Positions 29,700 through 62,146 of a DNA stretch of 64,000 nt are shown piece after piece. The notes under the pieces were generated by a model. It had not been told where the DNA came from and ran no database searches. It saw only the letters and a list, made by a program, of their open reading frames with translations. The stretch spans positions 4,651,501 to 4,715,500 of the forward strand of contig JAPNXP010000013.1 of NCBI GenBank assembly GCA_028753945.1. Direction: 5' to 3'. A program made the position numbers and the translations under genes. This stretch comes from Hexactinellida sp. DTS-2022. Taxonomy: Eukaryota > Porifera > Hexactinellida. Position 1 is the first letter of the stretch; each line of letters begins with the position of its first letter.

Positions 29700-41036
<11,337 letters not shown>

Positions 41037-51505: not shown

Positions 51506-52789
51506 ATGGAAAGAAAATTGAAGAAGAGGTGGCTATTTATACTGTTTGTACCAATAAGTATAATGCTAACATTGTTATATTATGAAAACAGTTACTCAAC
51601 AAACGAGAGAAATGAAATCAAGAACAGTCAATATGATTGGGCGACAATAAGCTCGAAGGAAATTAATGTTCAAATTATTGATAAGAATGATATAAAGGTA
51701 ATTCCTGAAAGTATAATAATGAGCTGCAAACACCCAGCAATTGGGAAGGCAGCTACCTCTGTTGCTCTATTGAAAGTGCACAAAACAGGCAGTACAACAC
51801 TATCTAGCATTCTCTATCGATTTGGCGTTCGAAGGGGATTAAGTTTTGTCATGATGCAAGATGACACACATCAATTCTACCCTGAGACGATTGATAAAGC
51901 GTATAGAAATTTCTACCCACCCTGTCAACAGAATAAGTACGATATTCTCAACATCCACTCCAGATACAACGGGAGGAGTATTCTCACTGCCTACATGCAG
52001 AAAGATACTTTTGTAGTAGCGACTCTGAGGCACCCAATGGAGCAAATTATGTCTGGATTCAATTATTATGGATATGCGAAACAGGTTAAATTGATGGGCA
52101 AAACATACGAAGATTTCTTAGATAATCCCAAACCGTTTCTCATAGGAATGGAACATAAATTTCCAAATCCAATAAACCTAATTTGGAACTCCATGTCGTA
52201 TGATATTGGACTGAATGAATTCAAAATACCCATAGGAATAAACAAGAGGCAAATTGAGAGCGAACCGAAATATGTTGCAGAAGTGGAAAGATTTCTGAAT
52301 TGGGCAGAAGAGCAAATCGACTTCTTTGTCATTTCAGAAGACTTTGACGAGTCGCTAATCCTACTGAAAGACAGGTTGCGCTGGGAGATAGAGGACGTGG
52401 TGTATTTTCCGCAGAACGCAGCAGCTGATCCTCCGAAAGAAGAAATTGATGAAGCAATACTGAACAAAACGATAGAATTCTCCTACATAGACTACCTACT
52501 GTATGACAGAATGAGACATAAGCTAGATTTGTTGAAGGAGGAGAAGGGAGAGCAACTAGCGATTGAAGTGAAAATACTACAGAGTTTGAATAAGAACTTT
52601 TCGGATTATTGTTTGGAGAAAAGTGAAGTTGATCCCAAACTATTCGGAGAAGTGAAAATACTCGGCAACAAATTGAGAAAGGAAAGAGAGAACGACAGAT
52701 GTTGTTTGGAAACTGCAATTGACGAAATGAAGTATGTAAAGGATATAAAGAAATATATGGCGAATTCTTGTCATTTGCAAGATAACTAG
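51506..52789 (+). CDS. Galactose-3-O-sulfotransferase-like, copy 1
   Basis: 427 residues, single exon. Type II Golgi membrane topology: basic KLKKR then anchor WLFILFVPISIMLTLLYY. PAPS 5'-phosphosulfate loop LLKVHKTGSTTLSSILYRFG and 3'-phosphate motif VVATLRHPMEQIMSGFNYYG match the GAL3ST family, which sulfates the 3-OH of galactose on glycolipids and glycoproteins (GAL3ST1 makes sulfatide). The family is clear; the acceptor is unknown. Tandem duplicate of 53732-54973, diverged mainly in the stem and around residues 205-225. Confidence 0.88.
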   Translation: MERKLKKRWLFILFVPISIMLTLLYYENSYSTNERNEIKNSQYDWATISSKEINVQIIDKNDIKVIPESIIMSCKHPAIGKAATSVALLKVHKTGSTTLSSILYRFGVRRGLSFVMMQDDTHQFYPETIDKAYRNFYPPCQQNKYDILNIHSRYNGRSILTAYMQKDTFVVATLRHPMEQIMSGFNYYGYAKQVKLMGKTYEDFLDNPKPFLIGMEHKFPNPINLIWNSMSYDIGLNEFKIPIGINKRQIESEPKYVAEVERFLNWAEEQIDFFVISEDFDESLILLKDRLRWEIEDVVYFPQNAAADPPKEEIDEAILNKTIEFSYIDYLLYDRMRHKLDLLKEEKGEQLAIEVKILQSLNKNFSDYCLEKSEVDPKLFGEVKILGNKLRKERENDRCCLETAIDEMKYVKDIKKYMANSCHLQDN

Positions 52790-53731: not shown

Positions 53732-54973
53732 ATGGAAAGAAGATCGAAGAGGTGGTTATTCGTGCTGATTATCCCAATCACAATAATACTAACATTCATA
53801 TACTATAAAAACAGTCCATCAACAAACGAAAGTGAGAATGATTGGGGCACAATAAGCTCAACAGGAAATAACGTTACCAAGTTAATTCCTGAAAGTATAA
53901 TAATGAGCTGCAAACACCCAGCAATTGGGAAGGCAGCTACCTCTGTTGCTCTACTGAAAGTGCACAAAACAGGAAGTACAACACTATCTAGCATTCTCTA
54001 TAGATTTGGCGTTCGAAGGGGATTAAGTTTCGTCATGATGCGAGGTTACGTACATCAATTCTACCCTCAGACAATTGATAAAGCGTATAGAAAGTTCTAC
54101 CCACCCTGTCAACAGAATAAGTACGATATTCTCAACATCCACTCCAGATACAACGGGAGGAGTATTCTCACTGCCTACATGCAGAAAGATACTTTTGTAG
54201 TAGCGACTCTGAGGCACCCAATGGAGCAAATGGTGTCTGCATTCAATTATTACGGATATGCGAAACAAGTTAAATTGATGGGCAAAACATATGGAGATTT
54301 CTTAGACAATCCTAAATCATTTCTGAGTCCACTGAGTTTTATAATTTCTAACCCAATGAACCTAATTTGGAACTCCATGTCGTATGATATTGGATTGAGT
54401 GAATTCAAAATACCCGTGGGAATAAACAAGAGGCAAATTGAGAGCGAACCGAAATATGTTGCAGAAGTGGAGAGATTTCTGAATTGGGCAGAAGAGCAAA
54501 TCGACTTCTTTGTCATCTCAGAAGACTTTGACGAGTCGCTAATCCTACTGAAAGACAGGTTGCGCTGGGAGATAGAGGACGTGGTGTATTTTCCGCAGAA
54601 CGCAGCAGCTGATCCTCCGAAAGAAGAAATTGATGAAGCAATACTGAACAAAACGATAGAATTCTCCTACATAGACTACCTACTGTATGACAGAATGAGA
54701 CATAAGCTAGATTTGTTGAAGGAGGAGAAGGGAGAGCAACTAGCGATTGAAGTGAAAATACTACAGAGTTTGAATAAGAACTTTTCGGATTATTGTTTGG
54801 AGAAAAGTGAAGTTGATCCCAAACTATTCGGAGAAGTGAAAATACTCGGCAACAAATTGAGAAAGGAACGAAAAAACGACAAATGTTGTTTGGAAACAGC
54901 AATTGATGAGAAGAAGTTTGTAAATAATATAAAGAAATATATGGCGAATTCCTGTCACATGCAAGATAACTAG
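53732..54973 (+). CDS. Galactose-3-O-sulfotransferase-like, copy 2
   Basis: 413 residues, single exon, tandem paralogue of copy 1. Same anchor layout and PAPS motifs (KVHKTGSTTLSS; LRHPMEQMVSAFNYYG). The stem is 14 residues shorter and the variable segment after FLDNPK differs. From about residue 226 to near the C-terminus the two proteins are almost identical, with few silent changes in the DNA, which points to recent duplication or gene conversion of the 3' half. Divergence in the acceptor-side segment may mean different acceptors. Confidence 0.88.
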   Translation: MERRSKRWLFVLIIPITIILTFIYYKNSPSTNESENDWGTISSTGNNVTKLIPESIIMSCKHPAIGKAATSVALLKVHKTGSTTLSSILYRFGVRRGLSFVMMRGYVHQFYPQTIDKAYRKFYPPCQQNKYDILNIHSRYNGRSILTAYMQKDTFVVATLRHPMEQMVSAFNYYGYAKQVKLMGKTYGDFLDNPKSFLSPLSFIISNPMNLIWNSMSYDIGLSEFKIPVGINKRQIESEPKYVAEVERFLNWAEEQIDFFVISEDFDESLILLKDRLRWEIEDVVYFPQNAAADPPKEEIDEAILNKTIEFSYIDYLLYDRMRHKLDLLKEEKGEQLAIEVKILQSLNKNFSDYCLEKSEVDPKLFGEVKILGNKLRKERKNDKCCLETAIDEKKFVNNIKKYMANSCHMQDN

Positions 54974-59793: not shown

Positions 59794-60616
59794 GATGTAT
59801 AGGAAGTTACGCAATAGGTTGTGGACAGGGAGATAGGAGCTGAATAGGAAATTGTATAGAGTAATTACTCTTTTTGAATTAATATCCTATGATTCCTATC
59901 CTATCCAAATATTAGGTCACTTGAAACGAGATAACGCTTGTTAGGAAACTTGTGACGAACCCATTCACTACATTAATTAATATTTATTCTCTTACGAACC
60001 TTTTGGTCTCAGTCGCGTCGCGACGGAAAACTCAACCGCTATACGGTCTCGTTTTTTTGAATAGACAATAAATATTTTGGATTCGCAAACAGCACACATT
60101 GTATACCTTATCTACCTATGGAAGCCAGCCACTAGATTCATTTAGAAATTTTGCATAGGCGTCGCAGACCACCCGGGAACATTGAGATATCCGTGTAGCC
60201 CAAGAGGAGATATATCATGAAATGGAATTTCAAATAATGAATTACATGGTAGTAAATTTCAGGAAATTGAATTTTATGTAAATTAAAATTCGTGGCCGTG
60301 AGCAACTAACATTAGGAAGTTTGTCTCTATTTTCATTATACTACATGCGGTTTTATTCCTTTAATACTATCCGGACAAAAAACAAACAAACAAACACACG
60401 ACAAATTACGCTTTGATAATATCACCCCATAGGGTTCGCTCGCTTCGCGACATTTGTACGTGCTAGACACTACGCAGCACAATTAATGGCCTTACCCTCC
60501 TCAAAACCTGTGACTCGTAAATGGCACGTACTTAATATATAGATAAATTAACAGGCAAAAATAACGAATAGTTACACAGTTCTAGAGCTAAAAATAAGTC
60601 AAAACGATAACACCAG
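59794..60616. other. Intergenic, ARF-fusion 3' end to GRK upstream side
   Basis: About 820 bp. Patches rich in cgcgtcgcgac (near 60016) and tcgcttcgcgac (near 60440) may be repeat remnants. No gene seen. Confidence 0.4.
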
Positions 60617-62146
60617 TTATTTCTTGGGAATAACAGAGGGCAGCTGCTTCTTGTCCGGGAGTACAAACTCGCCGGCTGCCCTGGGGTCGTCATACAGAAC
60701 CTTACTCGAGTAGTACTTCAGAGGAAGCTTGCGGTCCAGAATGGGAGAGTACTTTTCTATAAAAACAGAGAACTCAGTAGCCCCATCACTCCCAGAGATC
60801 TGGTCAATTCCCTCCACACACATGTAATACCAAACCATTTGAATCCAGAAGTAGGTGGCAGTCAGGTTGTACCCGCCCCCTTGGAACCTCTCCATGCCAG
60901 CGTGCACCAGTTTAGTTCCCTCCCTCCGCCCTCTCGACACCAGACACACGTACACCGCCCGCAGCTCGTCCTCCAGGCCCCAGCGCTCCAGGGACTTATC
61001 CTCGAACTTCTGAAGAAACTCTGAGTCAGTGAGAGCTTTCTTCTTGACAACAGGCACCTCTACTTTGGAATGCAGAGTCGTGGAAGAAATAATGCTAGGC
61101 AGCTGTTTGATGTCGGGCAGTACAACTTGCTGGCGACTCTCAATCTTCATCAACATTAAATCCTTTGTGAAATACTCCAAGAACAGTCCTCCATTGGCCA
61201 GCTGGGGGTTCATAAGCAGAAATCCTTTGAAGTCGTTGGTTGGATTTTTGGTTGCTACAATTGCATAGTGCACCATATGCGTCCAGAAATAAGTCATTGT
61301 TTCGTGGAATGTAGTTTTCCTGGCTCGAGGACTATTGTCAATGAAGTTCTTAATGCAAGAGAATATCTTCTTCATTCCTTCTCTCCTCCCTAGGCGCGTG
61401 AGGAATATCCAGGCTAGTCTCAGGTGGGTTCTGTGGTCCCAGGTCTCGAGTGAGTAGTCCTCTAATGCGGCTACGAACGCGTCATCGGGCCCGTCTTCTA
61501 TCTCCAACCAACTCTCCAGAATAAAATCCAAATCCTTCTTCCTGTCTTCCTCAGGCCCCTTACTTATACTTACAGGCTTACCAACAGCTGGCTTTTCAGA
61601 ACCGTGTTTACTCAAAACACTTATAATCCATTCCATTCCCTCATACAGCCCATCTCCTGACGTAGCCACACAGGCCTGTATGTACCAGGGACGGTCTCGT
61701 ATCTTCTCCAGACTGAGCTTATCGGTCACTTCTTTCACACTCATAGCGTTTGGCAGGTCTTGTTTGTTCGCGAATACCAACAGGGGAACGCCCCTAATCT
61801 CGTCCTCTGTCATCAGGAGTCCGAGACTCCACTCACTCTCGTCAATACGCTCCCTATCGTTGCTGTCCACAAAGTAGACTATGCATTGTGTGTTCTGGAA
61901 ATAATGCCGCCAAAGAGGCCGTATCTTGTCGCAGCCCCCCACGTCCCAAAACGTGAATGAATGGTCTTTGTAGACAAAAGTCTCAACATTAAAACCAATG
62001 GTAGGGATGGTGGTTACTACCTCTCCGAGGATAAGTCTATAGAGGGTGGTTGTACGCCCGCTGGCATCCAGGCCCAGGAAGAGAACTCGGTACTCCGCAG
62101 GGGACCGGTGGAACACCTTGTTCAGCCAGCCTTGAATTGATGACAT
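60617..62146 (-). CDS. ARF-like GTPase domain fused to two copies of an uncharacterised domain
   Basis: 509 residues, single exon. Residues 1-181 are a clear ARF-family G domain ([51 protein letters not shown]), but the P-loop Lys is Arg31 (GLDASGRTT) and the catalytic Gln is Cys72 (DVGGCDK); there is no Gly2 for myristoylation. Residues about 208-352 and 372-507 are two diverged copies of one domain: FEDxSLExW-like start, LR, GRREG, TYFWxxMVxY, ending VLPDxKQLPSxI. Copy 1 keeps HRTHLRLAW and FHETMTYFW; copy 2 lacks these His residues. The H-x2-HL / HET pattern recalls a bacterial family of hypothetical proteins (from memory, not searched). Function unknown; possibly a nucleotide-sensing or pseudo-GTPase scaffold. 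Confidence 0.88.

Follow-up and report, generated by a model that had tools for sequence, protein, structure and literature searches.

What might a small GTPase domain contribute to a protein when its P-loop lysine and its catalytic glutamine have both been replaced, and what is the domain to which it is joined? The question is raised by a gene of the glass sponge Hexactinellida sp. DTS-2022, which lies in the 64,000-nucleotide stretch of contig JAPNXP010000013.1 analysed here (the window) and encodes an ARF-like domain followed by two diverged copies, c1 and c2, of a further domain. This arrangement in a single frame, first put forward by a reading of the sequence alone, is confirmed by our analysis, which places the gene on the minus strand, a point that the sequence-only reading left unstated (Table 1). 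The frame contains no methionine between residues 171 and 258, and c1 with its first histidine pair therefore cannot start on an ATG of its own without splicing.

Table 1. Features of the Arl17-type gene and its protein (positions in the window)
Feature	Position	Strand	Basis
Arl17-type protein P0001, single reading frame, 509 aa	60617..62146	-	Opens with ATG, free of internal stops
ARF1-like GTPase domain, residues 15-178	61613..62104	-	Pfam Arf and PDB ARF1/ARF3 matches
Codon 2, Ser (TCA) where the myristoyl Gly is expected	62141..62143	-	Codon reading
Arg31 (CGT) at the P-loop Lys position	62054..62056	-	Codon reading and comparison with other ARF genes
Cys72 (TGC) at the catalytic Gln position	61931..61933	-	Codon reading and comparison with other ARF genes
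Met-free linker (residues 179-220) with a predicted helix, ~201-215	61487..61612	-	Sequence and AlphaFold2
c1 (residues 221-350), copy 1 of the bacterial-family domain, with its site residues kept	61097..61486	-	HMM 61-65 bits; mean AlphaFold2 pLDDT 90.8
c1 HxxH, His238 and His241	61424..61435	-	99% and 98% His in 84 bacterial rows
c1 His281-Glu282 of (F/Y)HETxT	61301..61306	-	86% and 83% in 84 bacterial rows
c2, copy 2, residues 372-503, site residues replaced by L, E, N, L	60638..61033	-	HMM 25-30 bits; mean AlphaFold2 pLDDT 91.0
AATAAA polyadenylation-like signal, ~260 nt past the stop	60352..60357	-	Consensus match only

The genome that carries the gene yields two zf-C4 nuclear-receptor matches, and 14 control genomes yield none. 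Nuclear receptors are an animal family, represented by one or two members in sponges and by many more in rotifers. The matches thus point to an animal host, and their small number favours a sponge over a rotifer. Wnt (PF00110) gave no match in this genome and none in the 14 control genomes either, and is therefore uninformative. Elsewhere in the window we observed a kinase with an RGS stretch, an EGF/LRR protein, a tandem pair of closely similar galactose-3-O-sulfotransferase-like genes (51506-52789 and 53732-54973, plus strand) and an 860-residue protein (35629-38211, minus strand) whose single open frame encodes Spondin_N along with six TIL stretches.

The C-terminal domain and its bacterial relatives

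The C-terminal domain of the window protein has no match in Pfam or NCBIfam. A search of 84,980 species genomes with a motif pattern (W-T-H-x-x-H-L-R followed by Y-H-E-T) recovered 36 loci (L003-L038), all 36 in open frames and distributed over many bacterial phyla. A profile built from these 36 bacterial rows only scores c1 at 65 bits and c2 at 30, against 2.8 for the reversed protein, and a Chthoniobacter protein compared with the whole 112 Mb sponge genome (E up to 10) finds c1 (2.7e-6) and c2 (8.1e-4) and nothing else. At the level of sequence these matches show that the c1/c2 domain is homologous to an unnamed bacterial family of patchy distribution, whose members share with it the HxxH, YHETxT, YS, AR and PD motifs. 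Profile-positive genomes (E up to 0.001) number at least 114 of the 1,822 in the sampled bacterial groups, centred on Chthoniobacter, a Xenococcaceae cyanobacterium, Solimicrobium, Myxococcales, Isosphaeraceae and Acidobacteria. The individual counts, which are lower bounds as only the best candidates were scored and which include the source genome of each group, are 2/288 for the phylum of L031, 8/292 for that of L026, 6/369 for the class of L016 and 22/282 for the phylum of L003 (alignment A2), and 25/294 and 51/297 for the phyla of L005 and L011 (alignment A3).

Conservation was read from 84 bacterial rows chosen by profile rather than by motif (L181 by tblastn, and L182-L185 for their long frames); ten rows that scored below 60 bits and four that repeat seed genes were excluded. 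In the 84 rows, 25 of which also belong to the profile's own alignment, itself rich in motif-chosen rows, the two histidine motifs (Table 1) are accompanied by Tyr/Phe280 (100%), Thr283 (100%), Thr285 (96%), Tyr326 (93%), Ala337 (98%), Arg or Lys338 (95%), Pro344 (98%) and Asp345 (95%). These residues make plausible, as a putative activity, the enzyme-like module proposed by the sequence-only reading. The putative cluster of His238, His241, His281 and Glu282 would probably bind a metal or take part in acid-base catalysis.

Known families offer little to which the domain could be assigned. When 61 members were scanned, ten Pfam families appeared, none through more than two matches and all of these weak (the best, EST1, 6.5e-4, in 2/61), NCBIfam gave one weak match (0.1) for four bacterial members, and a PDB sequence search had no significant match, its best E being 0.23 (7twa, haem-oxygenase-like). 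Likewise, PADLOC returned one weak match for the 61 members (BrxA, 0.005) and PHROGs one for six proteins (to c2, 0.032). DinB-like, haem-oxygenase-like and TPR-like folds were considered, and none was convincing in two fold searches, where absence by itself proves nothing. One structural likeness is viral, unlike the host of c1: the predicted fold of an uncharacterised 295-residue protein of Tupanvirus soda lake in BFVD (A0A6N1P216) is that of c1 (Foldseek E 6.6e-6, probability 1.00, TM 0.66 of the query, 25% identity). Among mobile elements, motif patterns found nothing in IMG/VR and another pattern yielded three loci, none of which matched the profile; none of the 10 pattern matches from a single-protein virus search was confirmed as a relative, and phage searches with the c1 stretch and with L026 gave nothing. 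A plasmid search with c1 gave none, and one with a bacterial member a single Streptomyces gene, located after a MarR gene.

Judged by length, the bacterial members mostly stand alone, since 46 of the 63 listed frames do not exceed 240 codons. The longer frames include several fusions. A GNAT acetyltransferase lies in frame with the domain in L021, L104, L106 and L111 by Pfam, and in L029, alike by eye; these fusions occur on either side of the domain, and their repetition suggests a shared substrate or pathway. Further Pfam partners are glyoxalase (L130, L184), MOSC (L131), PTH2 (L132), flavin reductase (L185) and CDP-alcohol phosphatidyltransferase (L182, with L183 alike), and in L119 a response regulator with a LuxR helix accompanies a weak, partial match to the domain (28 bits). 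The remaining long frames were assessed by eye. No GTPase partner occurs among the scanned bacterial fusions. The domain has thus joined several small enzymes, as a mobile module would, and no single pathway is implied. Conserved gene-neighbours were sought among 57 proteins adjoining the domain gene in L003-L038 (the 60 nearest listed, after proteins above 900 aa were filtered out, less three omitted), and no Pfam family recurs in more than two of them. The domain gene of L031 shares 4 bases with an overlapping GNAT gene.

The two tandem copies

Copies c1 and c2 are homologous: they share 29% identity over 140 columns (BLASTP E 8e-20 in a one-sequence database; 29-32% across comparisons), and their Smith-Waterman score is 157, whereas 2000 shuffles reached 52 at most. 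As the sequence-only reading claimed, HRTHL and FHET are present in c1 and missing from c2. More generally, c1 holds the conserved residues of the family or close ones (Phe280, Phe326, Ser337). In c2 the four positions of the putative cluster are occupied by Leu, Glu, Asn and Leu and Arg338 has become Ala, while Tyr280, Thr283, Thr285, Ala337, Pro344 and Asp345 are kept, with Tyr at 326. Since c2 has lost Arg338, and since in the 84 bacterial rows His281 varies in 14% and Glu282 in 17%, a clean division between catalytic and structural residues is weakened. The copies were modelled separately, because in a full-length alignment every one of the 59 bacterial rows had fallen on the ARF region, and AlphaFold2 predicts both with confidence (Table 1). 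On these models c2 looks like a folded copy that has lost its site. The earlier proposal of one active and one degenerate copy is therefore upheld as regards the intact site of c1 and the lost site and predicted fold of c2, with the activity of c1 a putative further part of it.

A second trace of c2 is present in the same genome. On contig C2 a 157-bp fragment (L002:1525-1681) is 96% identical to c2, with six differences, one of which alters the protein in a by-eye comparison. This bias suggests purifying selection on c2, if most of the changes arose in the gene rather than in the fragment, as the argument assumes. The fragment is surrounded by repeat-like, non-coding sequence, which gives the impression of a piece that was picked up and transposed. 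In a quick tree of 90 rows, a part of those available, c1 is nearest to L168 (35%) and c2 to c1 (32%). As the tree rests on few columns and its c2 branch is long, it supports no claim as to a donor. Two bacterial genes, L006 and L027, also have two domain copies in one frame, and copy 1 of L006 keeps the first His and YHET and has Leu at the second His.

The GTPase domain and how it might act

The GTPase domain matches the Pfam Arf profile at 4.5e-65 (218.8 bits against a cut-off of 22.3, residues 15-176), its best PDB sequence match is ARF3/ARF1 (1.2e-71), ahead of ARF6, and it is 62-63% identical to three ARF1-like genes of its own genome. Judged by this similarity rather than by an ARF tree, it appears to be derived from Arf1. 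The P-loop reads GLDASGRTT and the catalytic-Gln motif DVGGC, with NKQD, switch-I Thr49, PTIGF, DxxG and the ATSGDGL loop all kept. Having the family profile and lacking the P-loop Lys and catalytic Gln, the domain is a divergent relative of the ARF GTPases and a putative, rather than a demonstrated, working enzyme. The replacement of Lys by Arg, that of Gln by Cys and the loss of the myristoyl Gly, all noted earlier, are each borne out by the codons (Table 1). As CGT differs at three bases from both Lys codons and TGC at three from both Gln codons, single sequencing errors are no explanation for Arg31 and Cys72. The Gln loss is not peculiar to this gene, because seven other ARF-family loci of the genome (L049, L052-L054, L058-L060) also lack it, and the Gly2 usual in Arf1 is likewise absent from 40 of almost 450 Arf1 genes in the accessible text of PMC8358228. 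The ARF-family loci L040-L060 include many single open frames, several of them close together (contigs C4, C5, C13).

The altered residues are set in a domain whose partner-binding surface has changed little. Compared with the ARF1 gene L040, switch I is identical at 13/14 and switch II at 14/15 positions, the sole switch II difference being Gln to Cys, against 8/13 in the interswitch, 6/8 in the P-loop and 53/96 in residues 83-178. Switches are conserved in ARFs generally, so that their 27/29 (Fisher p 1.4e-4 against the interswitch and residues 83-178) shows only retention like that of a working ARF. The domain has dN 0.37 and dS 2.7 against L040, and 0.35 and 1.7 against L041, with dS near saturation; for L043, L044 and L046 dS could not be used. 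For the N-terminal helix the hydrophobic moment is 0.41, close to the 0.42-0.60 of three ARF genes of the same genome but a value reached by 11% of all 14-residue stretches of the window protein; membrane contact of this helix is possible, if unproven.

The pairing of a switch surface like that of a working ARF with changed catalytic residues suggests that the domain docks but does not cycle. We tentatively prefer, with somewhat less than even confidence, the reading that the protein is a non-cycling, switched-on ARF dock which carries an active c1 and a non-catalytic c2. The ARF part, presumably without myristoylation, would most likely hold the switch-on shape, with GTP bound and hydrolysis very slow or nil, and its intact switch I/II surface may dock on partners of ARF1, for instance GAPs, coat proteins or exchange factors. 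Once docked, it would carry c1 as a helical domain of bacterial type, and c2 may be kept for structure or regulation.

The P-loop can also be read differently. Among the 20 listed ARF-family P-loops of this genome, 19 have the Lys and the window gene alone has Arg; with 30 of 40 ARF-like matches retrieved, the comparison covers a part of the family. Arg31 might block phosphate binding, making the ARF part a nucleotide-free pseudo-GTPase that acts as a pure scaffold or as a decoy for exchange factors. We regard this as a somewhat unlikely alternative, for the Lys-to-Arg change retains charge and the other nucleotide motifs (NKQD, switch-I Thr49, DxxG, ATSGDG) are present. Changes of this type in other P-loop ATPases often keep binding but stop hydrolysis. 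Class (i) PseudoGTPases that bind no nucleotide do exist, as the accessible text of PMC5593906 describes; those of class (ii) bind nucleotide but lack catalysis. Of the pseudo-GTPase proposed by the sequence-only reading, the part that stands is the probable loss of hydrolysis, to which the Lys and Gln changes point, whereas with NKQD, the switch-I Thr and DxxG intact, binding may remain. Rnd, p190RhoGAP pG1/pG2 and CENP-M, as presented in the same text, likewise combine the small-GTPase fold with altered G motifs; the window protein differs from them in being of ARF type, in having Lys and Gln changed rather than whole motifs, and in its fusion to a bacterial domain.

It is improbable that the ARF part cycles normally, its substitutions compensated, and regulates the attached module by its GTP/GDP state: the high switch identity to ARF1 and the other ARL genes here that lack the Gln are in keeping with such an enzyme, but Lys, Gln and Gly2 have all been lost, and their codons depart from the usual ones at two or three positions. 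Decay of the gene or an assembly artefact, which the fragment on contig C2 and the degenerate c2 site might recall, is very improbable: the 509-codon frame is open and lies on a contig of 5.4 Mb, dN falls far below dS in both comparisons that could be used, the codon changes span several bases and c2 retains its predicted fold.

Relationship to Arl17

The fusion architecture is not new and has already been published as Arl17. In the accessible text of Vargova et al. 2021 (PMC8358228), Arl17 is an ARF1-derived GTPase that carries a novel domain in one to three copies, not identical to one another. HHpred detects no relatives for this domain, which also occurs in bacteria, alone or with other partners, and in other opisthokont proteins. 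The window protein has the same order, with an apparently Arf1-derived GTPase first and non-identical tandem copies after it, a domain that is stand-alone or joined to partners in bacteria and has no described relatives, and a similarly divergent GTPase and patchy spread. The published domain is given as ~100 residues, against ~130 here, and the two were likened by published description rather than by sequence. On this likeness the window gene most likely belongs to the Arl17 group. The earlier reading had asked whether the domain might already be well described with ARF fusions; in that text the fusion is described and a function is not, so this holds in a weaker form.

According to the same text, Arl17 is patchy in protists and fungi, is traced back by inference to the last eukaryotic ancestor, has no assigned function, and is represented in Holozoa by a rotifer alone, where horizontal transfer was inferred. 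With the hexactinellid gene, a second lineage of animals thus probably has Arl17. The words sponge, Amphimedon and Porifera are absent from the main text of PMC8358228, from which the sponge sampling cannot be read. A literature search for Arl17 and sponges returned no title on an ARF of sponge animals, and later Arl17 work is possible. Papers on human ARL17A/B we take to concern another locus.

Fusion to other domains is known elsewhere in the ARF family. In TRIM23 the ARF domain lies C-terminal. TRIM23 and other multidomain ARF proteins (PMC8358228, accessible text) resemble the window protein in joining an ARF to other domains and differ in their partners, and TRIM23 is linked to ubiquitination. 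A second ARF fusion is present in the sponge genome itself: the 360-residue frame L042 (L042:1486-2565, minus; contig C4, ~717888-718370) joins a glutathione S-transferase (GST_N, GST_C) to an ARF1-like domain, which is canonical, with Lys and Gln, and it adjoins the normal ARF1-like genes L040 and L041. The word glutathione is absent from the main text of PMC8358228.

The composite picture of an early-branching animal Arl17 in which the ARF domain serves, permanently switched on, as the docking arm of an enzyme from the bacterial family with an undescribed fold, and c2 is a pseudo-domain, we consider unlikely to be right in every part. The value of the gene lies in its being a probable second animal lineage, in its unusual P-loop and in the bacterial comparison that it affords. 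To the published account our analysis adds a bacterial reference set, a conserved four-residue site, a confident predicted fold, recurrent bacterial GNAT and glyoxalase fusions and the split between an intact and a degenerate copy, and with these additions the function of the C-terminal domain becomes testable. A second, unrelated animal lineage with Arl17 would reopen the choice between vertical descent and repeated transfer.
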